Assembly: GCF_000272405.2 (NCBI RefSeq)
Contig: NZ_AJZM02000278.1
Coordinates: 1-50,205 of the forward strand
DNA: 50,205 nt
Reading direction: 5' to 3'
Origin: Vibrio tasmaniensis 1F-187
Lineage (GTDB): Bacteria; Pseudomonadota; Gammaproteobacteria; Enterobacterales; Vibrionaceae
Below are positions 7,490-50,051 of this stretch, piece by piece. The notes beneath the pieces were generated by a model. The model made no database searches. It was given only the letters and a program-made list of their open reading frames with translations, and was not told where the DNA came from. Numbering within the stretch: the first letter of the stretch is position 1; each line of letters opens with the position of its first letter. A program made the translations under genes and the position numbers.

Positions 7490-7948
7490 ATGCAGAAAGT
7501 AATCTTTAGAAATTGCGATGAAAACTCACCTTATTGGAGTGAGTTAGAGGGCTTATTTCAAAGCGAATGGTGTAATTTCAAGTTTAAAGATACCTATAAA
7601 GAAAACGTAAAACTCCCTCCAGTAATAACAGTACTTCGCGATAATGTAGTCATTGGTGGCTTGGCATATTCCCATTTTCAGGAACCTCATCAAGTTCGGG
7701 ATGTGGTTTGGATTAATGCTGTTTATGTTGATGCTCAATGGCGTGGCCAAGGTATTGCAAGTGAATTGATTAATCGTGGTGTTGAACAAATGCCAGACTA
7801 TTATCAATCCCAACCCTCGAAAGATTCAACGTCTAAGTTGTACGCCTACACCAATATTGCGCCTTTGTATCTTTCTCTCGGTTGGTCAATCGTCGATATC
7901 GAATCAGAACCGAACCATAAAGTGATGAGTATTGAACTTAATCGATAA
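7490..7948 (+). CDS. GNAT family N-acetyltransferase
   Basis: A 152-residue GNAT domain covering the whole protein. The acetyl-CoA-binding motif A reads WRGQGIASELINRG (Q/R-x-x-G-x-G/A type) near residues 84-97, preceded by the strand VVWINAVYVDAQ. The C-terminal part has YAYTNIAPLYLSLGW, typical of the motif-B helix that ends the fold. The substrate cannot be deduced. An AAAGGATGGACAA stretch precedes the ATG. It is a single gene with 64 bp to the upstream zinc-ribbon gene. Confidence 0.88.
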   Translation: MQKVIFRNCDENSPYWSELEGLFQSEWCNFKFKDTYKENVKLPPVITVLRDNVVIGGLAYSHFQEPHQVRDVVWINAVYVDAQWRGQGIASELINRGVEQMPDYYQSQPSKDSTSKLYAYTNIAPLYLSLGWSIVDIESEPNHKVMSIELNR

Positions 7949-8123
7949 GTTCGGAATAAAAACTTTGATATTAGGTTATCTGCCTTTCGAGTAATGAAGC
8001 TCTCTCTTTCATCAACAATGCATAACTCTGTTAAATTTTCGTTGAAACTCATGCCTATATCGCCTTTAAATCAAACAACTCGCTGTTGATTAAAACGATC
8101 TCTACGATTTATTGCACCAGTTG

Positions 8124-8152
8124 TTGAGCACTAAGCCTATATTGACTAGAAT
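8124..8152 (+). promoter_or_regulatory. Candidate sigma-70 promoter for the DUF3297 gene
   Basis: TTGAGC at 8124-8129 and TAGAAT at 8147-8152 are separated by 17 bp, an ideal spacing, and lie 40 bp upstream of the DUF3297 start. This is read from the sequence only. Confidence 0.45.
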
Positions 8153-8191
8153 GACGCACTTTTTTTATTTACGTACATACAGGTAATGAAC

Positions 8192-8446
8192 ATGAGCGAT
8201 ACTAATTCAAGACCAGCTTTACCAGATCATCTTGCAGGTAACCCACGCAGCCCACACCACGTGGCTGAGTGTTTCGAATACCCAATCGGCATTCGTCTAA
8301 ATGGTAAAGAGCGTACTGATGTTGAAGAATACTGCATCAGCGAAGGTTGGGTTAAGATCCCTTCTCCAAAAGCGCTAGATCGTTTTGGTCAGCCAATGCT
8401 TATTACTCTTAAAGGCACAGTAGAAGCTTTCTACATCGAAGATTGA
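8192..8446 (+). CDS. DUF3297 family protein
   Basis: An 84-residue protein that matches DUF3297 along its length, with the conserved-looking stretches PDHLAGNPRSPHH, IGIRLNGKERTDVEEYC and GWVKI. An in-frame ATG at 8186 gives two extra residues, but the AGG at 8181 is better spaced for 8192. The function is unknown. It is single-gene, with a candidate promoter upstream and a strong terminator 50 bp downstream, suggesting a highly expressed housekeeping small protein. No signal peptide or membrane segment is seen. Confidence 0.85.
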   Translation: MSDTNSRPALPDHLAGNPRSPHHVAECFEYPIGIRLNGKERTDVEEYCISEGWVKIPSPKALDRFGQPMLITLKGTVEAFYIED

Positions 8447-8495
8447 TCACTTCGTGTAACTCGATAATGTCGAGTACAAAACGCTGTTTATATAG

Positions 8496-8527
8496 AAGGG
8501 TCTAGAGAAATCTAGGTCCTTTTTGTT
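8496..8527 (+). terminator. Rho-independent terminator after DUF3297
   Basis: The stem AGGGTCTAGA / TCTAGGTCCT closes a GAAA tetraloop and is followed by TTTTTG, just 50 bp after the DUF3297 stop codon. Confidence 0.85.
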
Positions 8528-8551
8528 TGCGTATGATTCCTTAAGTCGACT

Positions 8552-9052
8552 TTACCATGCGATACCTGCACCAATCGAAAACTCGACGTCTTCACCTTCT
8601 GCTTTATCAAAACCTGCGGTTACAACAAAGCCACTGTCCATAATATAGGTTGCATCTAAGCCACCGACTTGTTTGGTTGAGCTATCAGAGAACTCGCGGC
8701 TATCTAAAGTGACGTCCGTGTGGGTACGCTTGATCCCGTAACCTGGCGTGATGTACAAGTTTTCGGTGATACCAATAGGGGCGTGAAACTGATATTCGTT
8801 GTCGCGTTGTTTGTATTCGTACGATTCTTCATCTTCGTTATAAGCCGAGCGAGTAAACTCGATGCCATAACCTATGCTTCCCGGACCACGATATTTGATG
8901 TAAGAAGCAGACCAATCTCTCCACCCTCGTTCAGCTGATAGGCCAAATGTTATCGCAGTTTCTTCTTGGCTTTGTTCATTGGCTTGTGCGTTAGACATAG
9001 TGAACAGCAAGACAGCGGCTAATGTCAGAAGGGGGAACTTTTTGATGGTCAT
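8552..9052 (-). CDS. Small outer-membrane beta-barrel protein
   Basis: A 166-residue secreted protein. The first ~24 residues form a Sec signal peptide (Lys-Lys, hydrophobic core LLTLAAVLLFTM, cleavage near NAQA). The remainder alternates polar and aromatic residues in strand-like runs (for example GSIGYGIEFTRSAY, NLYITPGYGIKR, FSIGAGIAW) and ends in tryptophan, the usual terminal signature for BAM-assembled barrels. Its size fits an eight-stranded barrel. No specific ligand can be assigned. It is a single gene facing the DUF3297 terminator. Confidence 0.72.
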   Translation of the reverse strand: MTIKKFPLLTLAAVLLFTMSNAQANEQSQEETAITFGLSAERGWRDWSASYIKYRGPGSIGYGIEFTRSAYNEDEESYEYKQRDNEYQFHAPIGITENLYITPGYGIKRTHTDVTLDSREFSDSSTKQVGGLDATYIMDSGFVVTAGFDKAEGEDVEFSIGAGIAW

Positions 9053-17115: not shown

Positions 17116-17709
17116 ATGAAAAAAGTTGTTGTAGCTCTTATTGCTTTAGTTGCGTTGAATGCTTGTGTAACGCGAAAAATTCCTGTTGTGAAAGAAGCCA
17201 TGTCTGTCGGTCAGATATCTGAAATTGCTGTACATAACTTAAATTGTACAATGTTCGATACTTATACACTTGAAGATTCCCATCCAAATAACGTGATTCC
17301 GGCTCTCAAAAACCAAGCATATATGTCCGGCGGAAATCGTTATCGAATAGCGGATGTGCTTGATACTCGCCGTGGACGACCAAGCAGTGTAGTTGCAGAA
17401 TTTTATCTTTGTCCGACGAATTCATATCAAGTGAAGCCATCGGGAGTAGTTCAATTGTTGCCAGGCGCTCATGAAGTTAAGCCTATTGCTTTTGCTGAGA
17501 TTGAAAACACAGCTTGTAACGTTATTGGCAGCCACGTAGTGCAAGAAACTAATCCTAAGTCAGTGTACACAGAGCTAGCCAATGAAGTATTTATGCGAGG
17601 TGGAAATCGCTACCATATTACGAATATTATAGCGACAGACGGGTCAAATCCGACTTCAATTTCCGCTGATGTCTACCGATGTAAGCATCGTTCAGTTGCA
17701 TTTAACTAA
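17116..17709 (+). CDS. Lipoprotein with a duplicated RcsF/DUF4156-like domain
   Basis: A 197-residue predicted lipoprotein; the signal is MKKVVVALIALVALNAC with the lipid cysteine at 17. Two similar halves follow. Each starts at a cysteine (LNCTMF; ACNVIG), contains an ALKNQAYMSGGNRYRI-like helix-plus-GGNRY segment (second copy ELANEVFMRGGNRYHI) and ends VAEFYLC or SADVYRC. The Cys...GGN...Cys layout resembles the RcsF/DUF4156 group of outer-membrane stress-sensor lipoproteins, which is normally one copy per protein. Each half could form an internal disulphide. The exact function is unknown, and homology to RcsF is weak by eye. Confidence 0.7.
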   Translation: MKKVVVALIALVALNACVTRKIPVVKEAMSVGQISEIAVHNLNCTMFDTYTLEDSHPNNVIPALKNQAYMSGGNRYRIADVLDTRRGRPSSVVAEFYLCPTNSYQVKPSGVVQLLPGAHEVKPIAFAEIENTACNVIGSHVVQETNPKSVYTELANEVFMRGGNRYHITNIIATDGSNPTSISADVYRCKHRSVAFN

Positions 17710-17777: not shown

Positions 17778-17874
17778 TTTCTTTGCTACTTGTTCACATT
17801 CGTTATTGTTTAACGGTTTAAAGTTCGTTAGTGTTCGGAAATAACAAATTGTTTAAATAACAAGGTCTAAGAAC

Positions 17875-19864: not shown

Positions 19865-20239
19865 ATGGAAAACCTCAAAGTCTCAGAAATTAAGTCTTTC
19901 GTACCCGCGAAAGACTTCGATTTATCCAAGCGCTTTTACCAGTCAATCGGCTTCGAAGTGATGTCTGAATTTCACGATATCGCCTATCTACGACACGGCG
20001 GTTGTGCGTTCCTTCTGCAAAACTTTTATGAACCTGCGCACTGTCACAATTACATGATGCACTTGCTGGTTGAAGACGTAAAAAGTTGGTATCAACACAT
20101 CCAGAACTCTAATGTAGTGTCGGAATTTGAAGTTACCGTTTCCGAGGTTGTTGAACAGCCTTGGGGAATGCTTGAGTTTTGTATCACTGACCCAAGTGGT
20201 GTGCTGTGGCGTGTGGCTGAAAACATCAGGCCGCGTTAA
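19865..20239 (+). CDS. VOC (glyoxalase/bleomycin resistance) family protein
   Basis: A 124-residue single-chain VOC protein made of two beta-alpha-beta-beta-beta modules: the first starts IKSFVPAKDFDLSKRFYQSIGFEV near residue 9, the second MMHLLVEDVKSWYQHIQ near 60. GMLEFCITDPSGVLWRVAE closes the fold in the way usual for the family. The metal ligands are not obvious and the substrate is unknown. TAAGGATGTAGG precedes the ATG. It opens the stretch of small single genes. Confidence 0.85.
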   Translation: MENLKVSEIKSFVPAKDFDLSKRFYQSIGFEVMSEFHDIAYLRHGGCAFLLQNFYEPAHCHNYMMHLLVEDVKSWYQHIQNSNVVSEFEVTVSEVVEQPWGMLEFCITDPSGVLWRVAENIRPR

Positions 20240-20333
20240 TTCATCCAACTTGCATTGATAGTATGTCTAGGTTCACGGTGCTTTTCTGTCCTATTTGCGA
20301 GAGTGACAATTTAATGAGCATGGAGGTTTTGTA

Positions 20334-20468
20334 ATGGGAACTGTAATCGGTTTGGTGATTCTAGCTGCTATAGATTTGTATCTTGTTCGTAAAACAGGGC
20401 TTCATATTCATAAATGGATCTCTAAAAAGTATGCCGCGTATCTGTCGGATAAGGGAAACAAAAAATAG
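20334..20468 (+). CDS. 44-aa single-pass membrane miniprotein
   Basis: This short frame begins MGTVIGLVILAAIDLYLV, a likely single transmembrane helix, then becomes strongly basic (RKTG, HKWISKKYAAY, DKGNKK). A well-placed GGAGG seven bases before the ATG and the coherent hydrophobic-then-basic pattern support a real gene. The basic tail after the helix suggests an N-out/C-in orientation by the positive-inside rule. The function is unknown; similar peptides occur among Vibrio integron cassettes and phage genes, but no family was recognised. Confidence 0.65.
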   Translation: MGTVIGLVILAAIDLYLVRKTGLHIHKWISKKYAAYLSDKGNKK

Positions 20469-20546
20469 CCTTTTCTTATTAAGTCATCGGTATAAAAAAC
20501 GTTATCTGCTATTCATTTTACACACATTGCAAAGGTTGGAGGATTC

Positions 20547-20960
20547 ATGAAAGGTAAAGGAAAGTGCCTATGTGGCTCGGTTGAGTTGGAAGTAGAGTAC
20601 GCCAGTAATGAATTGGGGGCTTGTCATTGTAGTATGTGTAGAAATTGGTCTGGCGGTCCGATGTTAGTCATTGATTGCGCTGACTCAGTTAAAATATCAG
20701 GTGAATCAAATGTAGTGAGATATAAGTCATCCGAGTGGGCTGAGAGAGGGTTCTGCGGTAAATGTGGTACTCACTTGTTTTACTTTTTGGTGCCGAATAA
20801 TCAGTATCACCTTCCTGTCGGTTTATTGATGTCTGGGGATGACTACAAATTAACTCATCAGATATTTATCGATGAAAAGCCCGAATACTACGAATTTAAA
20901 AATGAAACACAAAATATGACTGGCGCAGAAGTATTTGCCCACTTTGAAAGTGGAGAGTAG
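20547..20960 (+). CDS. GFA-family (glutathione-dependent formaldehyde-activating-like) protein
   Basis: A 137-residue protein with the zinc-binding pattern of the GFA/CENP-V family: GKCLCGSVELEVEY at the N-terminus, ACHCSMCRNWSGG near residues 29-41 and GFCGKCGTHLFY near 71-82. The central GSVE and the CxxCG-T-H order are typical. Most members have no proven activity. GGTTGGAGG precedes the ATG. An attC-like site begins 24 bp after its stop codon, so the gene and that site have the layout of an integron cassette. Confidence 0.88.
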   Translation: MKGKGKCLCGSVELEVEYASNELGACHCSMCRNWSGGPMLVIDCADSVKISGESNVVRYKSSEWAERGFCGKCGTHLFYFLVPNNQYHLPVGLLMSGDDYKLTHQIFIDEKPEYYEFKNETQNMTGAEVFAHFESGE

Positions 20961-20984
20961 CACTTAGTTTTTATTAGCTTAAGA

Positions 20985-21073
20985 CTAATTCACAACGCTC
21001 GGCATTTTTTAGTTGCGTCGAGTTTTGTGTTTGCAGTGTAATGGTTTCGGTTAGGTGTTGCTCACGCTTAACG
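20985..21073 (+). repeat. Degenerate attC-like (integron cassette) site 1
   Basis: The stretch starts CTAATTCACAACGCTCGGCATTTTTT in two pieces (20985-21010) and then carries GTGTTTGCAGTGTAATGG ... GGTTAGGTGTTGCT (21027-21062), ending CTCACGCTTAACG. The ACGNNNGGCATTT core is shared with two further sites in this window, and the 21027-21062 block aligns with 21519-21555 of site 2. The layout follows the long Vibrio integron repeats as remembered. The terminal GCGTTA is missing, so the downstream end is eroded. Confidence 0.65.
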
Positions 21074-21189
21074 TCCCAGCATCAACCCCCAATTTGAAGT
21101 GACTCGAAACTCGATTGTGTGAACTGCTAATAGTTGAATGGTTACTCTAAAGTACACTGAGTTTTCTAACGGCTCTTAGGGGGGCAGAA

Positions 21190-21441
21190 ATGACAGATAT
21201 GGCAATATCAAGCTACCTTGGCTGGTTGTTACTTCTTATAGGTTGTTATCCTTTCTGCCTTGTTGGTGTCAGTATGTTTTTCTATGATGCAGAGCGTAAA
21301 CAAGCATTAAGGTGGTTGAACGGCGTTAGTTTTCTATTGGCTGTATTCCTTCTTTATATGCATATGCAAACAGAAGTTATCTATGGTCGGGAACTGCTCG
21401 AAGCCTGGTATCGTGATAACCCAGGAGATAGCCCTCAATAG
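21190..21441 (+). CDS. 83-aa two-helix membrane protein inside a fossil cassette
   Basis: A small protein with two predicted transmembrane helices, about residues 9-31 (YLGWLLLLIGCYPFCLVGV) and 43-60 (LNGVSFLLAVFLLYMHM), and an acidic tail. No family was recognised. TTAGGGGGGCAG precedes the ATG. The gene lies between attC-like sites 1 and 2, with its stop codon nine bases before site 2, which is exactly how a gene sits in an integron cassette. This context rather than the sequence is what best explains its presence. Confidence 0.7.
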   Translation: MTDMAISSYLGWLLLLIGCYPFCLVGVSMFFYDAERKQALRWLNGVSFLLAVFLLYMHMQTEVIYGRELLEAWYRDNPGDSPQ

Positions 21442-21449
21442 AAAGCACA

Positions 21450-21582
21450 TAACAAGCGCTTATTATCTATATCAGCATGATGCTAAACGATTGGCATTTC
21501 CAGTTCGAATCAACTTTAGTGTTTTCGGTACAATGGTTGAGGTTAGGTGGTTGCTATGTCAGCCACTTAAAGCGGCGATAAC
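21450..21582 (+). repeat. Degenerate attC-like (integron cassette) site 2
   Basis: It begins TAACAAGCGCTT (compare TAACAAACG of Vibrio repeats), has the AACGATTGGCATTTCCAGTT core at 21484-21503, the GTGTTTTCGGTACAATGG ... GGTTAGGTGGTTGCT block shared with site 1, and ends TGTCAGCCACTTAAAGCGGCGATAAC, given here in segments. Only the terminal GCGTTA has changed to GCGATA. Its 133-bp length suits a full-size Vibrio repeat. It starts nine bases after the stop of the gene at 21190. Confidence 0.75.
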
Positions 21583-21764
21583 TCGTCTATCCAATTATGC
21601 TTATCTGAGTGAACCATGTTCTCTTAACAAGTATAGCTCACCATTTTTGGCATCAACTACGTACGGTTTTTGACTGGTAAAAAGAGTTACTTAATGTTGG
21701 TAATTACTTAGGTTACTATTTAGCAAAGTATTGATTTGATATAAAAAATTTTTGGACGAAGGTT

Positions 21765-22511
21765 ATGAGAAAAATAATATTAAACATTGTCTTACTATCG
21801 GTGTTTGTTGCGTCTTTATTTCTAACAATTTCATCAGCAATAGACATTTCAAAAGAAGTGACCGTAAAGCTCCATGAGTTTGATTGGAGTGGTGTCTCCG
21901 GTGTAATGGACATGGTCATGGTTATTTTAACTTTCGTCTTACTGGTTGGACTGAAACAAGGTTCGAAATCTATTGAGGAATCGACCCGAAGTCGTAACGC
22001 CGAATTGTTGAATTGGGCGATGGAAGAGATGTCAGCATTAAAACCTGCGATTAGGTTGGTGACAGACGCTCACAAAAGAGAGCCTTATAGTCAGGTAACT
22101 AGTGACGTTAGTGTGGATTATGTATCGACATGGAGCAAAGAAGAACTACAAGCAGCTCAAGCTGTAAGTGTCGCGTTGCAGAGAATGGGGTACTTTGCTA
22201 CTCATGATTTGGTATCAAAAAAGCATTTTCTGAATCTTTGGGGGCCTTTATATCTATCATGTTGGTACTCACTCGAAGGTTGGGTTAAACATAAGCGACT
22301 TCAACTTGATGAACCTTTTGATATCGCTGATGGTGCATACTCGAGGCTGTACTTTGAAAAATACGCCATGTACTGTGAAGAAAAGTTACCGCCTTTGTTA
22401 TTGAATAATACAAGAAAGCAGTTTGGCTTAGAGCCAATGGTTCAACCCAAAGCCCACATTAAGTTGGGCATAAAATTGAAAGCAAGGCTCACAGAAAAGG
22501 TTGATATCTAA
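21765..22511 (+). CDS. Membrane-anchored protein of unknown function (DUF4760-like)
   Basis: A 248-residue protein with two N-terminal membrane helices (about residues 4-26 and 46-63) and a large cytoplasmic helical part. The SIEESTRSRNAELLNWAMEEM region near 67-90 and LVSKKHFLNLWGPLYLSCWYSLEGW near 148-172 resemble DUF4760-like proteins, but the match is by impression only. GGACGAAGGTT precedes the ATG. It starts 182 bp after attC-like site 2, so it could be the next cassette in the former array. The function is unknown. Confidence 0.7.
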   Translation: MRKIILNIVLLSVFVASLFLTISSAIDISKEVTVKLHEFDWSGVSGVMDMVMVILTFVLLVGLKQGSKSIEESTRSRNAELLNWAMEEMSALKPAIRLVTDAHKREPYSQVTSDVSVDYVSTWSKEELQAAQAVSVALQRMGYFATHDLVSKKHFLNLWGPLYLSCWYSLEGWVKHKRLQLDEPFDIADGAYSRLYFEKYAMYCEEKLPPLLLNNTRKQFGLEPMVQPKAHIKLGIKLKARLTEKVDI

Positions 22512-22629
22512 CTACTCACCACACAATACTTTTTGGAATCAAAGGGGCTTGTTAGCTTGATCAACACATAAATGCTAAGAGTGTATTGGCTGATCGTATA
22601 TTGAAGAATGTTTCTTCAAAGGGAGATGC

Positions 22630-23490
22630 ATGTCATTGGTTATGTGTAATGGAGAGAATAAGGGAATAACGAAAGTATTAATTGCGGGGGCTAGTGGATA
22701 CATTGGTCGTCACGTTACATCGCTATTCACAAAAAGTGGCTTTGAAGTTTTTACATACGGTAGAGACAAAGTCGTCACACCTCCTATAGTTGGGTTAATA
22801 GAAGATAGAGCTGACTTTGAAGGCTTCTTTGACGTGGTTGTGAATTGTGCGCGTCCACATTGGTCACAATTCTCCGCACATGAAATAGCCGATGTGGAGC
22901 AGAAATTGCTCTCTGAGTTAGACCTACTTGCCGCTAAAGGCGCAACAAAGATACATACATCAGGTGTTTGGCTTTTTGGCAACGCATCTAGCGCTGATTT
23001 GAGACAGTTTAGACTGAAACCCTTAGACGCCGTTAGATTAGACGTAGAAACGATACATAGCGCTATTAGAAACAGGTGGCACGTCGTCTACTGTCCTAGT
23101 TTGGTTTATGGCGGTGAGGATTGTCAGCTAAAACGAATTGTAGAATCTTTCTCTAGCCAAACGATTGAAGTACGTATGCCGTCTATCGGCTTTAACCAAT
23201 ATGTTCATGTTTACGACATTGCGCGGTTCTATCTACTTTTGGCGCAAGGCCGGACGTTAGAAAAGCAGCATTTTATTGCTGAGACGCAAGGCTATAGCCC
23301 TGCAGAGTTCGCTCGACTCTTACTAGCTGCAAAAGCGGTAACAAAAGTACGAAAGATCCGTTGGGAAGAGTTTGAGGTAGAAAACGGTTCGTTAGCTGTA
23401 GAAGTCGAGAAGATGAATCTTACACTTCCAATTAGTTATTCGTTTGAGGCTACTGAGTCAATTAGTGAATATATTGAAAATTACATATAG
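22630..23490 (+). CDS. Atypical NAD(P)-dependent epimerase/dehydratase-like protein
   Basis: A 286-residue extended-SDR-type protein. The nucleotide-binding loop is LIAGASGYIGRHV near residues 17-29, and HTSGVWLFGNAS near 110 and YCPSLVYGGED near 151 occupy the usual positions of the active-site strand and the post-catalytic segment. A clear YxxxK is not visible, so it may bind NAD(P) without classical epimerase chemistry. QYVHVYDIARFYLL near 190 is typical of the family. GGGAGATGC precedes the ATG. It is a single gene. Confidence 0.82.
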   Translation: MSLVMCNGENKGITKVLIAGASGYIGRHVTSLFTKSGFEVFTYGRDKVVTPPIVGLIEDRADFEGFFDVVVNCARPHWSQFSAHEIADVEQKLLSELDLLAAKGATKIHTSGVWLFGNASSADLRQFRLKPLDAVRLDVETIHSAIRNRWHVVYCPSLVYGGEDCQLKRIVESFSSQTIEVRMPSIGFNQYVHVYDIARFYLLLAQGRTLEKQHFIAETQGYSPAEFARLLLAAKAVTKVRKIRWEEFEVENGSLAVEVEKMNLTLPISYSFEATESISEYIENYI

Positions 23491-23753
23491 TTGAGTGCTT
23501 ATTTCTAATTACCAACCCTAGGTACTTTTAGTTGAGTTTAGTCTCTCCGGCGTCTGTACTTAAGTTAATCGGTAGCGTCACAATAATTTCCTTTCGTAAC
23601 AGATATGAAGCTACCGAGTCGCAGGAATAGATCTTTTTGTAGAGCTGAGTCCGAGGTCAACGTTATCTTTGAGTTAGCTCTATATCATTGAATGACAAGC
23701 GTGCGTCACACCTTTGTTTGGCGTGAGGATTAGTTCAAACATGGAGTGAAAAT
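23491..23753. other. Intergenic stretch before the RraA-like pseudogene; no clear element
   Basis: This 263-bp non-coding segment contains CTTTTAGTTGAGTTTAGTCTC near 23527, vaguely similar to the middle of the attC-like sites, but no core GGCATTT motif and no GTTAGGC end. No terminator or promoter was convincing. Confidence 0.3.
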
Positions 23754-24372
23754 ATGAAGTCAGACTTTTCAAAACTTGCGACAACCGATTACGGAAACAT
23801 ACTAAGTAACGACCACTTTATTAATTTTAGTATTGGTCCTCTTTGGCAGGGAATGCCGCGAATTTGTGGAGAAGCATTTACTGTCCAGTTAACGTCTGGT
23901 GATAATTTAATGCTTCATTCAGCCATATACGAAGCACCAGAAGGTTCCATCATTGTAGTGGATGGAGTTGATAGCGAATATGCAGTAGCCGGCGGTAATG
24001 TATGCGCAGTCGCGAAGAGTCGAGGTATTAAAGGCTTTATTATTGATGGTGTCATTCGAGATTTGACTGAAATTTCAGATATGAAGTTTCCAGTTTTTGC
24101 GAAAGGTGTTCATCCAGTTCCGGGAAAGAAAGAGGTCTATTCTGAATTGGGCGCTCCAATCACTTGCGGGGGAGCAAAGGTCTCTGCGGGAGATATCATT
24201 GTTGCTGATGCAGATCAGTATTGTCGTTATTCCTAAATCAAAGAAAGACGAAGTGTTTTTAATGGCTTCAAAGAAAGCAAGTGACGAAGCTTCATTAACA
24301 CTCGCTGAGTGGGAAACGAGTCATAGGGCCAAAATAGCCCAAGCAATAACGTCTGCGAAACAAATATCTTAA
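23754..24372 (+). pseudogene. RraA-like (demethylmenaquinone methyltransferase-like) protein gene, frameshifted
   Basis: The first 160 codons encode an RraA-family protein: IGPLWQGMPRICGEAFTVQ, IVVDGVDSEYAVAGGN and GFIIDGVIRDLTEI are the trimer-core signatures, and the frame runs to GDIIVADADQ. There it shifts: the in-frame stop at 24234 cuts the protein short, while the continuation (SIVVIPKSKKDEV ... LAEWETSHRAKIAQAI) is intact in the next frame up to the stop at 24372. Skipping one base near 24217 restores ADxIVVIP, as in intact relatives. RraA-like proteins include RNase E inhibitors and HMG aldolases. Either the gene is broken or there is a sequencing error. Confidence 0.85.
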
Positions 24373-24432
24373 TTGATGCAGCAAGTTGATTTGTAACGCG
24401 TGGCATTTTTCATCAATTAACAGGCGTTAGGC
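24369..24432 (+). repeat. Short attC-like site 3 with an intact GTTAGGC core
   Basis: Perfect 10-bp inverted arms TTAATTGATG (24369-24378) and CATCAATTAA (24411-24420) flank TAACGCGTGGCATTTTT (24394-24410), the same ACGNNNGGCATTT core seen in sites 1 and 2. The end is CAGGCGTTAGGC, with GTTAGGC (24426-24432) fitting the integron core-site consensus GTTRRRY. At 64 bp it is a short attC, or an internally deleted long one. The next gene starts 20 bases later, a usual cassette distance. Confidence 0.72.
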
Positions 24433-24452
24433 GACAACGAATAAATTCATCC

Positions 24453-24941
24453 ATGGAGAAGAGAGTGATCGTACGGACTGCGACGAAAGAAGACTCAAGT
24501 GTCTTGTTAGAGTTTATTGAACAAAAAGCTGACTTTGACCGGAGTATGAAAGGGTTTAGTGGCGAAATCTCGACAACTATAGAGAAAATCGAACGCACAT
24601 TATTTGGTGATTACGCATTTGCCCATGCATTAATATTGGAACGGAATTGTGAGCCTTTTGGCTTCGCACTGTATCACTATCGATATTCATCCTTCAGTGG
24701 AGAGCCATCAATCTGGCTTGACGACCTATTGGTTACAGGAAATCAAAGATCAAAAGGGTATGGCCGTGAACTTATGTTGGCTTTAAAGTCACAAGCGGAG
24801 TCATCATATGCCTCTCACATCTCATGGACGGCAAGTCCACATAATAAGAAAGCGCATGATTTCTACAAAAGGTTGGGTGCAGAGGTTGAGCGAATGGATG
24901 ATCAAAGACCTTATTTCCGTTGGGCAATGTGCGATTCGTAA
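24453..24941 (+). CDS. GNAT family N-acetyltransferase next to an attC-like site
   Basis: A 162-residue GNAT resembling the diamine/PaiA-like group. IWLDDLLVTGNQRSKGYGRELMLAL near residues 90-114 contains the acetyl-CoA loop (QRSKGYG), and HISWTASPHNKKAHDFYKRLGAE near 130-152 the motif-B region. The start codon lies 20 bases after the GTTAGGC core of attC-like site 3, so the gene sits where the first gene of an integron cassette would. AATTCATCCATGGAG gives a weak ribosome site. The substrate is unknown. Confidence 0.88.
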   Translation: MEKRVIVRTATKEDSSVLLEFIEQKADFDRSMKGFSGEISTTIEKIERTLFGDYAFAHALILERNCEPFGFALYHYRYSSFSGEPSIWLDDLLVTGNQRSKGYGRELMLALKSQAESSYASHISWTASPHNKKAHDFYKRLGAEVERMDDQRPYFRWAMCDS

Positions 24942-24959
24942 ATGAATCAAAAGGGAACT

Positions 24960-25805
24960 ATGAAAATAACGACGCTGGTTGACAACTCTCGACTGGATAA
25001 CAGGAAAGATTTAGCCGTTGAGCGCGGACTATCACTGCATATTGAAACTGAATCGCTAAAGATCTTGTTCGATATGGGAAGTGGCGATACGTTTTGTCAA
25101 AACGCACCATTACTGGGTATTGATATCAAAGATGTAGACCTCGCTGTCATATCACACAGGCATCATGATCATTGTAATGGCACCGCTGATTTTGTTGCTC
25201 ATAACTCTAAAGCCAAAGTGTTTCTGAAAAATTGCGAACAGAAAAGCTATCATTTCCGAGCTTTCGGTTTTAAAAGTGATGTCGGGATCAATACGGACTT
25301 GCTAGAAAACAGCAACGATCGGTTAGTCTTCGTCAATCGTACGACTGAGATCGCACCGAATGTCTTTGCTATTACTGATATTAGTGCGAAACACGAACAA
25401 CCTAAGGGCAATAAATACCTATATACACAGTCGAAGAATCAACGAGAGCGCGACTCATTTGATCATGAATTACTGTTAGTGGTTAAAGAGTCAGACGGTT
25501 TAGTTATATTTACTGGTTGTGCGCATAGTGGCGTTCTCAATATGGTTGAAACAGCGGTTGCTATGTTCCCAGGAGCGAGAATAAAAGCCGTTGTCGGGGG
25601 CTTTCATCTAGTGGGGTTACCATTATTGAATAGTATTGGTGGCACAAAGCAAGACATTAGAGATCTTGGATTGACGTTGTCTCAATACCCCATTGATAAA
25701 CTGTATACAGGGCACTGCACAGGCAAGAAAGCTTATGGCCTGTTGAAAGAAGTATTAGGCGAGCGTTTGGAAGCAATGCCGACAGGTCGGCGTATTCATG
25801 TGTAG
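24960..25805 (+). CDS. Metallo-beta-lactamase-fold protein (DHPP-synthase-like)
   Basis: A 281-residue MBL-fold protein of the COG1237 type, related to archaeal dihydropterin-(beta-D-ribofuranosyl)aminobenzene phosphate synthases. Metal-binding motifs are SHRHHDHCNG near residues 65-74, FTGCAHSG near 183-190, VVGGFHL near 212-218 and YTGHCTG near 246-252. It most likely hydrolyses a phosphate or lactone-type bond, but the substrate is not known. A frame extends to 24942, touching the stop of the GNAT gene; the ATG at 24960 has AAGGGA before it and begins the family-like MKITTLVDNS. Confidence 0.87.
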   Translation: MKITTLVDNSRLDNRKDLAVERGLSLHIETESLKILFDMGSGDTFCQNAPLLGIDIKDVDLAVISHRHHDHCNGTADFVAHNSKAKVFLKNCEQKSYHFRAFGFKSDVGINTDLLENSNDRLVFVNRTTEIAPNVFAITDISAKHEQPKGNKYLYTQSKNQRERDSFDHELLLVVKESDGLVIFTGCAHSGVLNMVETAVAMFPGARIKAVVGGFHLVGLPLLNSIGGTKQDIRDLGLTLSQYPIDKLYTGHCTGKKAYGLLKEVLGERLEAMPTGRRIHV

Positions 25806-25861
25806 CGTTGGTCAAACCTTAGCTGTACGTTTGTCTTTTGGTAAGAATTAAGGAGTTTTAA

Positions 25862-26275
25862 GTGAGTCATGAAGTAAGAGTAGGTGTCGCTGCGGTTATT
25901 CTACGTGAAGGACGAGTACTACTTGGAGAGCGAATTGGTTCTCATGGGGCTCATACGTGGGCAACGCCGGGCGGACACCTTGAATGGGGTGAGAGCATTG
26001 AAGAGTGTGCCAAACGTGAAACACTTGAAGAGACAGGCCTAGTTGTTAGTGGATTTGAAAAGCTCTCTTTTACCAATGATATTTTTGAGAAAGAGAACAA
26101 GCACTATATAACGCTGTTTGTTGTTGCTTCTGACGCTAGCGGCGAACCACAGATAACAGAACCTGATAAATGTAAGCAATGGAAATGGTTTAAGTTAGAT
26201 GAGTTACCAGAGCCATTGTTTCTTCCTCTGACGAATCTGTTGAGCGATCCAGTCATCTTTGGGAAGCTGGCTTAG
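25862..26275 (+). CDS. NUDIX hydrolase (NUDT15/MutT-like)
   Basis: A 137-residue NUDIX protein. The box GGHLEWGESIEECAKRETLE continuing ETGL lies near residues 38-61, with the REx2EE-type pattern modified to RETLEET. The N-terminal VGVAAVILREGRVLLGERIGSHGAHTWATP is the NUDT15/MTH2-like form, suggesting nucleotide sanitation such as oxidised or modified dGTP. The start is GTG at 25862, with AAGGAG seven bases before it. It is a single gene. Confidence 0.88.
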   Translation: MSHEVRVGVAAVILREGRVLLGERIGSHGAHTWATPGGHLEWGESIEECAKRETLEETGLVVSGFEKLSFTNDIFEKENKHYITLFVVASDASGEPQITEPDKCKQWKWFKLDELPEPLFLPLTNLLSDPVIFGKLA

Positions 26276-26324
26276 TAAAACAGATTCTCCTCATATCTCT
26301 AATTGAATGACTAAAGGATCAATG

Positions 26325-26732
26325 ATGACATTACGAGTAGTTCCAGAGCTTTATTGTTTCGATATTAATGTGAGCAAATCCTTCTTTGTCGATGTGTTGG
26401 GGTTTGAAGTGAAATACGAGCGCCCAGATGAAGAGTTTGTTTATCTAACGCTTGATGGTGTTGATGTGATGCTTGAAGGGATTGCGGGCAAAAGTCGAAA
26501 ATGGCTTTCAGGTGATCTGGCGTTACCTTTAGGGCGTGGCGTTAACTTTCAATGGGATGCTATCGACATCGAACCTCTATATCAGAGAGTTAACGAAAGC
26601 GCCGCTGATTCTATTTACTTAGCGTTAGAGTCGAAGTCTTATCAATGTGGAGAGTCCATAGCGATTCAGAAGCAGTTCATCGTTCAAACTCCAGATGGTT
26701 ATCTCTTTAGGTTCTGCCAAGATATTCGTTAA
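26325..26732 (+). CDS. VOC-family protein (bleomycin-resistance-protein-like)
   Basis: A 135-residue VOC protein starting MTLRVVPELYCFDINVSKSFF, with DVLGFEVKYERPDEEFVYL, GRGVNFQWDAIDIEPLYQRV and VQTPDGYLFRFCQDI at the expected places. The order resembles bleomycin-sequestering proteins, which bind the drug without modifying it; resistance activity is unproven. Three in-frame ATGs are possible (26307, 26322, 26325); AAAGGA at 26313-26318 is best spaced for 26325. It is a single gene. Confidence 0.82.
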   Translation: MTLRVVPELYCFDINVSKSFFVDVLGFEVKYERPDEEFVYLTLDGVDVMLEGIAGKSRKWLSGDLALPLGRGVNFQWDAIDIEPLYQRVNESAADSIYLALESKSYQCGESIAIQKQFIVQTPDGYLFRFCQDIR

Positions 26733-26809
26733 CACATAAGTATTATTAGCTACTCATTTATTACGAGAAACACGGCTAACTAAGTACCCGTATAAACAAG
26801 GAGAGTAGA

Positions 26810-27244
26810 GTGGTCAACATTCGGGAAATGGACATTTCAGACTACGACTCAGTGATCGCGTTGTGGTGCCAGACAGAAGGCATGAGTATTCGCGATGCCG
26901 ATTCGAAAGAAAGCATTGCGAGCTATTTAGATCGTAACCCTGGTCTGAGTTTTGTGGCTGAAAGTAACAACGAGATCATTGGCGCTGTGTTAGTCGGAAC
27001 GGATGGACGTCGTGGGTATTTACAACATTTAGCTGTCTCGGCCAACTTTAGAGGGCAAAAGTTAGGTTGTAAGCTTGTCGCAGAGGCGGTCAACGCTTTT
27101 GCAGGGTTAGGCATCCCGAAGACTCACTTGTTTGTCTATAACGACAACATCAACGCTCAACAGTTTTACGAAAAGTTGGGCTGGTTTCCTCGAGATGAAG
27201 TTCGAATGTACTCGTTTAATAGCTCGAATAATAGTAACGTTTAG
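26810..27244 (+). CDS. GNAT family N-acetyltransferase (YpeA/RimI-like)
   Basis: A 144-residue GNAT with the YpeA-like beginning NIREMDISDYDSVIALWCQT. The acetyl-CoA loop is FRGQKLGCKLV near residues 82-92, slightly altered from the usual RxxGxG (Q-K-L-G), and FVYNDNINAQQFYEKLGW near 107-124 forms the C-terminal part with the typical tyrosine. The start is GTG at 26810, preceded by AAGGAG. It is a single gene with an unknown substrate. Confidence 0.87.
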   Translation: MVNIREMDISDYDSVIALWCQTEGMSIRDADSKESIASYLDRNPGLSFVAESNNEIIGAVLVGTDGRRGYLQHLAVSANFRGQKLGCKLVAEAVNAFAGLGIPKTHLFVYNDNINAQQFYEKLGWFPRDEVRMYSFNSSNNSNV

Positions 27245-27333
27245 CCTTAAAGGTTAGTGCTGGTTGAGCTTGAATTTGTAACAGATTCGCGCCCATCTTC
27301 CCAATATCAAAACAATCCTTGGAGTATTTAGGA

Positions 27334-27690
27334 ATGTTGTTTTTTAGTCTGTCTAAACCATTGATTCAAGGCTCCGAGTTATGTTCTGAGCTGCTCAATT
27401 TCTTAACCGAGCATAAGAGTGATTTCGAAGAAAAGTTAATCCCAGATCTGTCATACATCGATGATATGGCACATGTGGTGAACGGTATTAAAATCAAAGA
27501 CGTTCTACACATCAGTAGCAATCAATACCGACTTCAATATTCGTTTGATTGGGAGTTGTTTCTAGGTTGTTCAGATAGGAACGAAACTGGTGTAGAGAAT
27601 GGAAGTGTTCTATTCACGCTTGAGGACGATAACGTTCTTAATATCAACTTCCCAAACTACGGTTCTCGAGACACTAGCGATGAGCTCTAG
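27334..27690 (+). CDS. 118-aa protein of unknown function
   Basis: No family was recognised. The ATG at 27334 (MLFFSLSKPL) has GGAG at 27321 and is preferred to the TTG at 27319. The predicted protein is acidic, with mixed helices at the start and several beta strands later (DVLHISSNQYRLQYSFDWELFLG, SVLFTLEDDNVLNINFP), and lacks a signal peptide or membrane helix. It is a single gene between two GNAT genes. Codon usage looks like its neighbours. Confidence 0.7.
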   Translation: MLFFSLSKPLIQGSELCSELLNFLTEHKSDFEEKLIPDLSYIDDMAHVVNGIKIKDVLHISSNQYRLQYSFDWELFLGCSDRNETGVENGSVLFTLEDDNVLNINFPNYGSRDTSDEL

Positions 27691-34680: not shown

Positions 34681-34804
34681 TTTGTATCGATACGATCAGT
34701 TTGTAACGAAAACCCAGGTCGTATCGAATAATCAGGTTATATCGAACGATCAGGTTATATCGAACGATCAGGTTTCATCGAAAAATCAGGTTATAACAAA
34801 CAAG
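34660..34804 (+). repeat. 18-bp tandem repeat spanning the end of the SnoaL-like gene
   Basis: About eight tandem units of roughly 18 bp with consensus CAGGTTATATCGAACGAT. Units begin at 34660 (inside the coding sequence), 34678 (19 bp, containing the stop TAG), 34697, 34715, 34733, 34751, 34769 and 34787. Units five and six (34733-34768) are identical. The array ends seven bases before the AGGAGG of the next gene. Confidence 0.9.
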
Positions 34805-34822: not shown

Positions 34823-35554
34823 TTGAGCAAGGTAGTGATTGTAACAGGCGGAAGCCGAGGCATTGGCGCAGCGACGTCTAAATTGTTGGCCAGTAAAGGC
34901 TATGCCGTATGCGTTAACTTTATACACAATGAGTCGCGAGCTGAAGATCTAGTGAACGAGATTCGCGAGCAGGGCGGAACCGCGATAAGCGTGCGTGCGG
35001 ATGTGTCTGTTGAATCAGATGTGAAATCTTTGTTTGAGATTGCTCGTAACAAGCTAGGCCCAGTGACTCATTTGGTCAATAATGCCGGGATCTTGTTTAC
35101 CCAGTCACCATTAGTTGACATCGAATTGGATCGCTTTGAAAAGGTGATGAAATCGAACGTATCAAGCTGCTTCTTGTGCAGTAAAGCCTTTATCAAACAA
35201 GCTGATGGTGCAGGTTCTATTGTGAATGTATCGTCTGCGGCTTCGCGAACGGGCGCACCGTTTGAGTACGTGGATTACGCAGCATCGAAAGGTGCGATGG
35301 ATTCACTCACCAAAGGCTTATCGCTTGAATTGGCTTCACGTAATATCCGAGTGAATGGCGTAAGGCCTGGTTGTATTTATACTGAGATGCACGCAGATGG
35401 CGGAGAGCCTGATCGCGTAGACAGACTAGCCTCGCAGCTACCATTACAACGAGGTGGCACACCAGAAGAGGTGGCTAACTCTATCGCATGGTTATTATCA
35501 GACGAAGCTTCGTATGTAACCGGTTCGTTTATTGATATTGCAGGCGGTCGTTAG
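34823..35554 (+). CDS. SDR-family oxidoreductase (FabG-like)
   Basis: A 243-residue classical SDR. Cofactor loop TGGSRGIGA near residues 8-16, NNAGI near 87, catalytic serine in NVSSAAS, YAASK with catalytic tyrosine and lysine near 151-155, and the conserved VNGVRPG near 174. It probably reduces a ketone or oxidises an alcohol with NAD(P). The start is TTG at 34823, with a perfect AGGAGG five bases upstream; no ATG or GTG gives a better N-terminus. It lies just after the 18-bp repeats. Confidence 0.9.
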   Translation: MSKVVIVTGGSRGIGAATSKLLASKGYAVCVNFIHNESRAEDLVNEIREQGGTAISVRADVSVESDVKSLFEIARNKLGPVTHLVNNAGILFTQSPLVDIELDRFEKVMKSNVSSCFLCSKAFIKQADGAGSIVNVSSAASRTGAPFEYVDYAASKGAMDSLTKGLSLELASRNIRVNGVRPGCIYTEMHADGGEPDRVDRLASQLPLQRGGTPEEVANSIAWLLSDEASYVTGSFIDIAGGR

Positions 35555-37481: not shown

Positions 37482-37931
37482 ATGAAAGTAGAAACGATTG
37501 AAGCCGTAAAGGCGTACGGGTTTTCAGTAAGAACCACTAATACCGATGAGATTGATCCAACAAAAGCAAAGATAGGTCAATTATGGCAAGGTTTTTTCGA
37601 TCAAGCTTTTCCTAAGCTGACACCAGATTCAAAAGTGTATGGTGTCTACACCAATTACCAATCGGATTTTACTGGTGAGTTTGATGTTATTGCATGTACC
37701 AATGCACTTACCGATAACAATTTAGATGACCTAGTCGAAACCGAAATTGAAGCAGGTAAATATCTGACGTTTTCTGCTGAAGGTGAACTTCCTCAAGCGG
37801 TCATCGATTTATGGGGCGAAGTGTGGGCGTACTTCAACGCAGCAGATTGCCCACATGTTCGAACTTACACGACAGACTTTGAATTTTACAAAGGCGAAAC
37901 TGAAGTCGAGATTTCGATAGCGATTCAATAA
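37482..37931 (+). CDS. GyrI-like/AraC effector-binding-domain protein
   Basis: A 149-residue single-domain protein of the GyrI-like fold, the drug-binding domain of transcription factors such as BmrR and Rob. VKAYGFSVRTTN near residues 9-20, KIGQLWQGFFDQAFP near 30-44, VYGVYTNYQSDFTGEFDVIAC near 52-72 and AGKYLTFSAEGELPQAVIDLWGEVW near 92-116 (in pieces) match the family. It lacks a DNA-binding domain, so it may bind small ligands alone. AAAACGA precedes the ATG. A terminator follows 43 bp later. Confidence 0.87.
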   Translation: MKVETIEAVKAYGFSVRTTNTDEIDPTKAKIGQLWQGFFDQAFPKLTPDSKVYGVYTNYQSDFTGEFDVIACTNALTDNNLDDLVETEIEAGKYLTFSAEGELPQAVIDLWGEVWAYFNAADCPHVRTYTTDFEFYKGETEVEISIAIQ

Positions 37932-43979: not shown

Positions 43980-44011
43980 CCAAAAGCTTCAAAGTCCAGA
44001 AGATCAAAAAA

Positions 44012-44038
44012 AAGGCCACTCAATCGAGTGGCCTTTTT
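44012..44038 (+). terminator. Rho-independent terminator after the U32 gene
   Basis: AAGGCCACTC and GAGTGGCCTTT form a stem around AATC-type loop bases, with AAAAAA before it and TTTTT after it, so it can work in both directions for the convergent U32 and thioesterase genes. Confidence 0.9.
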
Positions 44039-44080
44039 AATGTCTGAAACTTTCTGAGTTTTTCTGAATCAGCGAATAGG

Positions 44081-44545
44081 TTATTCCGTCACGGCTTCTT
44101 GTTTGAAGCATGGGCTCTTTAACGTGTTCATCTTCTCGATTTCATTGGTTAAACGCAGTGAAAGCAGCGCTTTTTGGTTTGAAGCAAAATCGAACATAAC
44201 GATAGTCGCAGTGCCGATTGTCGTCAGCTTCTGTTGAGCCTTACTGACGATCGCGTATTCCATGGTGAAGCGGTCGTCTTGAATGTCTGTAACACGCGAA
44301 CCGATCATCAGCGTGTCTGGATACGTGACTGGTCTGAAATATTTACAATAAGTGTCGCCAAGAACAGGGCCAACTTTGGTAATCGCCATCTCTTCCATCA
44401 GCTCGACATGCTTGAAAAAATCTAAGCGAGCCGTTTCGAAATAACGAAAATATACGGCGTTGTTAACGTGATTAAGGGCGTCCATTTCTCCCCAAGCGAC
44501 AGGGATTTCTGTTACTACCGGGTAGTCAGATAATAGTGCTTCCAT
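44081..44545 (-). CDS. Hot-dog-fold acyl-CoA thioesterase (YbgC/FadM-like)
   Basis: A 154-residue hot-dog protein. The active-site region is VAWGEMDALNHVNNAVYFRYFE near residues 17-38 (aspartate in EMDALNHVN), followed by GDTYCKYFRPVTYPDTLMIGSRV. It probably hydrolyses short or hydroxylated acyl-CoA thioesters in the cytoplasm. The region upstream of its start contains an 18-bp tandem repeat. It is a single gene. Confidence 0.9.
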   Translation of the reverse strand: MEALLSDYPVVTEIPVAWGEMDALNHVNNAVYFRYFETARLDFFKHVELMEEMAITKVGPVLGDTYCKYFRPVTYPDTLMIGSRVTDIQDDRFTMEYAIVSKAQQKLTTIGTATIVMFDFASNQKALLSLRLTNEIEKMNTLKSPCFKQEAVTE

Positions 44546-48699: not shown

Positions 48700-49386
48700 A
48701 TGGAATTAACGGGTTACTCTTTAGGGCTCGTCGAAGCAAGCTGGATGACAGTTCAGCTTGCGTTCGTAAGCCTATTGGTTGGATTGGTTCTAGCAGTGTT
48801 GTTTGCAAGTGGTGAGATGTCTCGTCGTATTGCAATCAAATGGCCAACGACTGCATTTGTGACGATTGTTCGTGGTTTACCAGAAATTCTGGTCGTACTG
48901 TTTATCTACTTTGGTTCGACACAAGTTCTGTTCATGATCACTGGCGACTTCATAGAAGTGAGCCCGTTCTTATCTGGTGTTGTTGCACTGTCACTTATTT
49001 TCGCTTCTTACGCTTCGCAAACTATTCGTGGTGCGTTGAAAGCAGTAAGCAAAGGGCAGAGAGAAGCAGCAAGTGCGCTTGGTATTTCACAATCTCGTGC
49101 TTTCTTCAGAGTCGTATTGCCACAAGCAGTGAGACACGCGCTACCAGGTTTAACCAACCAATGGCTGGTTCTATTGAAAGACACTGCACTGGTTTCATTG
49201 ATTGGCGTAACCGATCTATTGAAACAAGCGCAATTAACATCAGCGGCAACGCACGAAGCATTCACTTGGTACGCGACAGCAGCAGCAATCTATTTGGTCA
49301 TCACTTTAATCACACAAAGATTGGTAAAAGTGATTGATGGTAAGTTCTCTATTCAAGGTTTGGGTAACAAAGGGGCAATGGCATGA
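48700..49386 (+). CDS. artQ: Arginine ABC importer permease ArtQ
   Basis: A 228-residue permease with about five membrane helices. The cytoplasmic EAA loop is visible as [30 protein letters not shown] near residues 124-153, given in parts. It forms the membrane channel with ArtM. It starts three bases after the binding-protein gene, and its stop codon overlaps the artM start by four bases (ATGA), so the two are translationally coupled. Confidence 0.93.
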
Positions 49387-50051
49387 ATCAACAATACCTC
49401 TCCCAAATGCTTGAGGGCTTAGCGACCAGTCTGCAACTCACAGGCGCTTCATTGCTTGTTGGTTGTATCTTGTCATTGCTGATGACGGTAACGCTAATCC
49501 TAAGAATACCGGCGATTCACTGGTTAACTCGTGGCATCATTACGCTGTTTACCGGCACACCATTGTTGGTTCAGATTTTTTTGGTGTATTACGGCCCGGG
49601 TCAATTCGATTGGATTCGTGAAAGCTTCCTATGGACATGGCTTAGCCAACCTTGGTTCTGCGCAATGTTAGCACTCGCACTGAACACCGCGGCATACAGC
49701 ACGCTACTGTTCAGAGGTGCATTCAACGCGATTCCAGCAGGGCAGTGGGAAGCATGTCGCGCATTAGGCATGGACAAAATCGCAACGCTTAAAGTGTTAC
49801 TGCCATACGCACTACGTCGCGCCGTTCCAGCTTACTCGAACGAGGTGATTCTAGTCTTCAAAGGTACATCACTGGCAAGCACCATCACCATCATGGATTT
49901 GATGGGCTACGCTCAGCGTATCAACGGCCAAACCTACGACACACTCACAGTGTTCGGCATTGCTGGCGCATTCTACCTAGCAGTGAATGGTGTATTAACG
50001 CTGATCTTCCGTCAGGTAGAGAAGAAAGCCCTCGCATTCGAAGCGGCATAA
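49383..50051 (+). CDS. artM: Arginine ABC importer permease ArtM
   Basis: A 222-residue permease of the same family. [15 protein letters not shown] near residues 59-73 and the EAA loop [30 protein letters not shown] near 121-150 (in parts) are the family signatures. With ArtQ it makes the heterodimeric channel. The operon order ATPase, binding protein, Q, M matches that known in enterobacteria without a second binding protein. A strong terminator follows. Confidence 0.93.

Follow-up and report, generated by a model that had tools for sequence, protein, structure and literature searches.

Positions of about 20.24–27.24 kb in the window, which is the whole analysed stretch of 50,205 nucleotides from Vibrio tasmaniensis 1F-187 (contig NZ_AJZM02000278.1), very probably represent the remains of a cassette cluster that has no integrase (a CALIN), located at a conserved array site, in which the attC sites have decayed and some of the genes have settled. 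At least two attC sites (S1 and S2, detected with a model of our own) are present and no integrase match lies on the contig, as defines a CALIN. Homologs of the 83-aa gene, the GFA gene and the RraA-like gene of this block are carried in live arrays, which marks the copies in the window as ex-cassettes.

Cassettes would have entered this site in one orientation, through either an integrase that acted in trans or an ancestral integron. Comparison shows that the attC sites then decayed through point changes of the end boxes together with small insertions and deletions; the genes are probably no longer excisable, and S1 and S2 would no longer recombine. The fossil part would thus be the mobility, as some of the genes look to have been kept by selection. 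The original prediction had proposed that a fossil cassette between two attC-like sites, or a small block of cassettes including the GFA gene, lies outside a functioning integron. The attC scores and the live homologs support this reading, and both the cassette and the GFA block stand, but the extent first given does not, the block reaching well beyond it (Table 1).

Table 1. Predicted features of the decayed cassette block and its flanks, in window coordinates
Feature	Position	Strand	Basis
Left flank, VOC/glyoxalase-family gene (PF00903)	19865..20239	+	conserved in place beside block
Decayed cassette block	20240..27244	+	0/11 tested genes at the G027 locus; 10-attC array here in G147
Putative ex-cassette 1, GFA gene (20547-20960) with relic attC S1	20517..21068	+	homology to live cassette starts near 20517
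Relic attC S1	20977..21072	-	57.7 bits, E 3e-12; model positions 13-114 of 126
Putative ex-cassette 2, with 83-aa gene	21069..21577	+	alignment with live cassettes L082 and L083
83-aa ORF	21190..21441	+	open frame; hydrophobic by eye
Relic attC S2	21447..21583	-	43.0 bits, E 1.4e-8 over 21467-21583
Possible relic attC S4	23700..23728	.	by-eye alignment with live RraA cassette L111; right arm only; no model score of its own
RraA-like ex-cassette gene (PF03737)	23754..24372	+	Pfam match; 89% to live cassette
Relic attC S3	24355..24432	-	11.5 bits, E 1.2; middle deleted; right box GTTAGGC kept
Right flank gene	27319..27690	+	conserved in place; follows array in G147

The relic attC sites S1 and S2

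A repeat search pairs 20994–21057 with 21486–21549 at 70% identity over 64 nt, and the cores of the two sites are 492 bp apart. The local alignment score of S1 and S2 (47) was reached by none of 2000 shuffles; the chance maximum for such a score was 29 in another 2000 shuffles, and likewise 29 in 2977 random window pairs. The similarity between two non-coding stretches that had first drawn attention to the locus is therefore real, its core and most of its ~37-bp block lying inside the 64-nt pair, and GCGATA is found for GCGTTA at 21575–21580 as described. The second site does lie close behind the ORF, at eight bases by coordinates and not nine (the ORF ends at 21441 and TAACAA starts at 21450). 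The site extents first proposed were too short: attC model matches cover 20977–21072 and 21467–21583.

A DNA search of the genome of strain 1F-187 with S2 returned only S2 itself and 11 chance-level matches, and because this was uninformative a covariance-model search was needed. Rfam gave no match in the window at gathering thresholds, and an attC model was therefore built. A blastn search of plasmid records with 20960–21700 matched 51 records, 41 of them from Vibrio, at 122 places overall, with up to 16 places in one record among the matches listed. Four records were opened as a source of attC sites, three with cassette-like runs of small genes and a fourth unannotated, and an alignment of 40 attC from them yielded the covariance model R1 (126 positions, 20 pairs).

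With filters off, R1 ranks S1 first and S2 second in the window, both on the strand predicted for cassettes that read in the + direction, and the third-best match has 15.3 bits. In control chromosome from three other Vibrio genomes, a run with default filters over 248 kb gave a single match (12.1 bits), and a run with filters off over 98 kb gave 11 matches, the best of 14.9 bits. Two further candidates, 44001–44109 (15.3 bits) and 17839–17873 (12.9 bits), were rejected as attC on account of the similar control scores (14.9 and 12.1 bits). The original prediction was to be dropped if no attC score rose above background and another repeat family explained the similarity; the sites instead score 57.7 and 43.0 bits against at most 14.9 bits in controls. 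Chance cores do occur, and a repeat family unrelated to integrons might in principle mimic attC, yet this explanation is refuted by the scores against controls, by the Rfam result and by live copies of the same gene that lie between intact attC.

The attC end boxes have the consensus RYYYAAC and GTTRRRY, with cleavage in GTT. In S1 the body is kept, both end arms fall outside the model match, both end boxes are lost or changed, and an ~11-bp gap lies near the right arm relative to the live copy. In S2 the left arm begins near 21447, before the model match, and contains an ~18-bp insertion; the left end box is retained as ACATAAC, a near-match to the consensus, and in the right box GTT has become GAT (GATAACT). 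Neither S1 nor S2 conforms to the RYYYAAC/GTTRRRY consensus, and GTTAGGC is retained in S3 only. An attC pairs its R and L boxes through folding of the bottom strand. Predicted single-strand DNA folds are weak, at −10.7 kcal/mol for S1 and −10.3 kcal/mol for S2, compared with −12.2 to −15.8 kcal/mol for three live attC of differing lengths. The z values are −1.02 and 0.09, respectively, against −1.37 to −2.04 for the live controls; DNA fold prediction is rough, and R-box pairing is absent from some minimum-energy folds of the live controls.

R1 recovers 66 sites from the four source records, 58 at ≥100 bits and 8 at 48–96 bits (40 of the 66 trained the model). As live array sites also score 48–96 bits, the score alone is no proof of decay, which rests on alignment with live copies. 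On this combined evidence from sequence, S1 and S2 are identified as decayed integron attC sites.

Live cassette homologs and shared decay

The 83-aa protein has no significant family match (best Pfam E 0.043; none in PADLOC or NCBIfam), and its gene was found in 45 of 196 genomes of the genus, the present one included (E ≤ 0.001). Named loci are those of Vibrio splendidus (94%), V. aquaticus (two loci, 86%), Vibrio sp. JPW-9-11-11 (86%) and V. tubiashii (71%). In JPW-9-11-11 (L083) the gene is flanked by attC of 113 and 131 bits. One V. aquaticus copy (L082) has a 117-bit attC 3′ of the gene, with the nearest upstream attC ~1.4 kb away, and the second (L084) has a 56-bit site ~0.6 kb upstream. 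Judging from these flanks, the 83-aa gene is a live cassette in other Vibrio species, at 86% identity. The 23 more distant homologs with a locus (L058–L080, ~1.5 kb of flank) and V. tubiashii (L085) had no attC match at E ≤ 1, which indicates that the gene also occurs outside arrays.

The GFA protein has 90.5% amino-acid identity to a cassette that lies between attC in a related genome, G027 (L118); nucleotide homology to this live cassette starts ~15 bp inside the cassette and continues through S1. The RraA-like protein likewise corresponds to a cassette between attC in G012 (L111). Its frame is broken in the window, with 160 aa to the first stop and a tail in another frame to 24372, and is open over 205–210 aa in the four relatives checked and over 205 aa in the live copy. 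The possible site S4 lies just upstream of this gene and is present in G109 too, and in G018, G146 and G190 other DNA extends up to about the same break point. S3, downstream of the gene, is not significant by itself in the window (E 1.2), and its counterpart in G190 is full-length but decayed (36.4 bits). Breaks in homology with live cassettes coincide with, or fall near, cassette boundaries.

Ranking of blastn matches bears on which site belonged to which gene. For five S1 copies, the attC of the GFA cassette ranks 3rd–25th of 398–443 matches, and 83-aa attC rank 83rd or lower. For three S2 copies, the 83-aa attC of L083 ranks 3rd–28th of 261–325 matches and the GFA attC 22nd–148th; the 83-aa attC of L082 ranks 56th, unlisted and 59th, with the RraA attC better placed (38th, unlisted and 31st). 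These ranks support, without proving, the retention by each gene of its own site. S1 most likely belongs to the GFA cassette as its attC, S2 to the 83-aa cassette and S3 to the RraA-like one. Ten proteins (the RraA-like protein left out) were examined with PADLOC and no defence role was shown, the matches being those of an MBL protein to two models (18.7 and 20.9 bits) and of a Nudix protein to one (50.1 bits).

Decay was compared by aligning the window and five relatives (G146, G109, G018, G076 and G190) with live copies. R1 finds S1 in all five relatives (44–60 bits) and S2 in four (29–46 bits). Common to all six genomes are the ~18-bp insertion in the left arm of S2, the ~11-bp gap in the right arm of S1 and the loss of GTT at both right boxes. 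The left box of S2 has the same string as in live copies in the window, G146, G018 and G190, and is altered in G109 and G076; G146 has lost most of the remaining S2. As these lesions are common to the window and the five relatives, decay seems to have begun before the six lineages split.

These alignments also bear on whether S1 and S2 are divergent but working attC of an active CALIN. The retained left box of S2, the intact integrase gene (456 bits) on another contig of the same genome and the live-array sites that score no higher would be compatible with continued mobility. Such mobility is nevertheless highly improbable, given that neither site has kept GTT at its right box in any of the six aligned genomes, that the model match of S1 lacks both end arms, that the predicted folds of both sites are weaker than those of the three live attC (of differing lengths) and that the same lesions recur across several species.

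The genes have fared differently from one another. The 83-aa frame is open in all five relatives, with dN/dS of 0.12–0.38 between the window and each of them (0.38 is the window–G190 pair, which has few changes). The GFA frame is open in four of the five and broken in G190 (L090), with 52 aa to the first stop; its dN/dS is 0–0.10 (on part of the gene for G190), compared with 0.05–0.09 for the flanking VOC gene. A 248-aa gene of the block has an open frame in one of the two relatives checked, and in G109 (L087) it is broken, with 115 aa and an interruption of ~0.9 kb; dN/dS is 0.02 (G076) and 0.15 (G109, part of the gene). Because of the open frames and the mostly low dN/dS, the 83-aa gene, and GFA in most relatives, look retained as ordinary chromosomal genes, and other genes of the block are apparently being broken or lost in single lineages.

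The probable chromosomal array site, and integrases elsewhere

The VOC gene on the left of the block has matches at E ≤ 1e-40 in 68 of the 196 genus genomes, the present one included, and 20 of its neighbourhoods were compared, one of them shortened by a contig end. Thirteen of the 20 together contain 51 attC by R1 at E ≤ 1e-3, and the other seven (G046, G121, G087, G116, G072, G194 and G017) contain none at this threshold. All 67 attC matches at E ≤ 1 in the 20 neighbourhoods point along the VOC gene.

Two genomes are particularly informative. In G147, ten attC (63–141 bits, best 140.9) lie between the VOC gene and the gene at 27319, and outside this array the tested genes of the window from 7490 to 50048 occur in the same order, except for those at 17116, 19074 and 33236, which were not found. 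No integrase match at E ≤ 1e-60 was found in G147, and 10 of its 15 attC at E ≤ 1e-8 sit at this locus. In G027, the VOC match ends ~67 bp from the match to the gene at 27319, so that the flanks are joined; none of 11 tested block genes is present at this locus, compared with 17 of 31 tested genes from outside the block (13.3–37.9 kb), which are in the same order at 75–98% identity. In seven genomes the RraA-like gene lies within 6 bp after GFA (GFA is cut down in G072 and G194), and a short shared sequence at this join suggests deletion of the part between.

The question of whether related strains lack the segment is answered by G027, which has no insert, and by other relatives without the gene; carriers include five relatives with the gene and at least one decaying site, and some relatives have well-formed attC at the same place. 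Gene order and attC content across these genomes identify the locus as a shared array location and no chance stray spot. The simplest account would be an array at a fixed site that has been worn down differently in each lineage.

An off-target insertion is recognised by a cassette at a G/TT site (attG) with its attC at the 3′ end and by a known empty site. The block could accordingly have arisen by separate off-target insertions, single cassettes having been placed one by one at attG sites with no array ever present in this lineage. By eye, the junctions against the G027 join are indeed G/TT-like (GCG/TTAATTC near 20236 and AACG/TTTAGCC near 27240). Off-target insertion is among the origins of CALINs given in the available part of one paper (PMC8618304), and cassettes outside integrons have been reported in Vibrio (Boucher 2006, PMC1382264, in the part available). 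However, at least two attC relics follow one another in the same orientation, G147 has its ten-attC array between the same flanks, and a single insertion would have left an attC at the right end, where R1 finds no match. Separate insertions are therefore unlikely, and a worn-down array remains the preferred reading, although the lack of R1 matches at the right end and between several of the block genes counts against this reading too.

No match to the integron integrase family (TIGR02249) at E ≤ 0.001 lies on the window's contig, out of 12 in the genome; with no intI on this contig, the locus is not a complete integron. The intact integrase gene of this genome is at 7880–8854 of another contig, C249 (L025; 456 bits). 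C249 (9.6 kb) has no attC match, and the neighbours of the integrase gene resemble P450 and ribonucleotide reductase genes by eye. An IntI-like tyrosine recombinase of 295 aa, which scores under the family cut-off, is encoded on a further contig, C44 (L002, 1426–2313), and starts 86 bases after an attC at C44:3386–3512. Similar attC–recombinase pairs occur at three places on C2 of G109, one on C1 of G109 and one on C2 of G076, and the pair might represent an insertion element, present in several copies, that is linked to cassettes. In G076, an integron integrase close to attC sites (C1:1963612–1964234) is also split into two pieces that overlap and differ in frame, and an intact one lies on C2. 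G018 and G146 have no integron integrase over the cut-off.

Known systems and the wider tract

A CALIN is a cluster of attC sites lacking an integron-integrase (Cury et al. 2016, as cited in the available parts of PMC8618304 and PMC9024848), and IntegronFinder 2 by default calls one from at least two attC sites in a cluster (PMC9024848, same part). The window resembles such clusters in its at least two attC sites in one orientation with a gene between them and in the lack of an integrase match on the contig. Unlike them, its sites are decayed, with changed end boxes and about half the score of most live Vibrio attC, some of its genes look settled and a relative has an array at this very site. 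The sedentary chromosomal integrons of Vibrio (superintegrons) share with the window the type of site, its length class and the cassette genes (83-aa, GFA and RraA-like), whereas the window contig is without intI and its attC are few and decayed.

In Treponema phagedenis, attC and cassettes remain at a syntenic place after integrase loss, according to the portion of that report available (PMC3607928); the Vibrio locus differs from the remnants described there in having several stages of attC decay across genomes and measurable dN/dS. Boucher 2006 described cassette-type genes situated outside the integron in Vibrio; in the available part of the text, the non-cassette vibrio homologs had no 59-be traces next to them, and the direction was left open (PMC1382264). 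The genes described there and those at the present locus are alike in being cassette-type genes outside an integron; unlike there, attC traces survive here. Broken integrase genes are common in bacteria and rare in vibrios, as stated in the available part of another study (PMC2426708).

A literature search gave no work on this locus among the matches listed, judged by titles and abstract openings. Cassette-type genes outside integrons are known, and special to this locus is the graded decay of attC at one place: related genomes range from well-formed arrays through half-decayed sites and bare genes to an empty join. With the stages of decay side by side, the conversion of a mobile cassette into a fixed gene could be dated and counted. 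A further implication of the locus is that some cassette-derived DNA may escape searches designed for intact attC.

Genes related to cassettes are found beyond the block as well. The 64 genes of the window were compared with live arrays of three other Vibrio genomes and with control chromosome, 248 kb of each. At ≥50% identity, 12 of the 64 match the arrays and none the control; one of these (49383) is a flank gene at an array edge, which leaves 11, spanning 7.5–34.7 kb (three in the block, seven outside it at 13–35 kb and one at 7.5 kb). At E ≤ 1e-3 and any identity, the numbers are 17 of 64 in arrays and 6 of 64 in the control, with 49383 left out. At the G027 locus, five of the eight array-matching genes from outside the block are in place (four at 93–98% and one at 87%) and three were not found; the cassette link of these genes would therefore be older or run in the reverse direction.

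The reverse direction would imply cassette birth, that is, that old chromosomal genes gained attC here and then spread into arrays. These five genes in place and the occurrence of the 83-aa family without attC at 23 distant loci speak for such an origin. It is, however, very unlikely for the block, as the relic sites are lesioned forms of standard attC, with lesions common to six genomes while live copies are intact, as well-formed attC occur at the locus in relatives, and as neither GFA nor RraA is present at the G027 locus though G027 has GFA as a live cassette.

It is conceivable, if somewhat doubtful, that the whole tract of ~7–38 kb between the array sites is a long-running nursery in which cassettes shed their attC and turn into permanent genes of the chromosome, some older than others. 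The 11 array-matching genes, and a second array site past the right end of the window in relatives, would fit such a nursery. If so, the locus would be a genus-wide conveyor from the integron to the core chromosome. A cassette origin of the whole 13–38 kb tract was rejected as the main reading because 17 of the 31 genes tested outside the block are collinear at G027, compared with none of the 11 in the block.

A second array site lies 0.6–2.8 kb past the gene at 49383–50051 in G140, G005, G147, G027 and G018. The window contig ends 154 bases after this gene, and its end is perhaps an assembly break at the second array site.

Three further observations concern other parts of the window. The ORF at 37482–37931, in the same tract, has a Pfam match (85.6 bits) to Cass2, an integron-associated effector binding protein. 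An 18-bp tandem repeat (34692–34799) lies just upstream of the ORF at 34823–35554, and a 61-bp tandem repeat in three copies (81–263) is located at the left end of the window.
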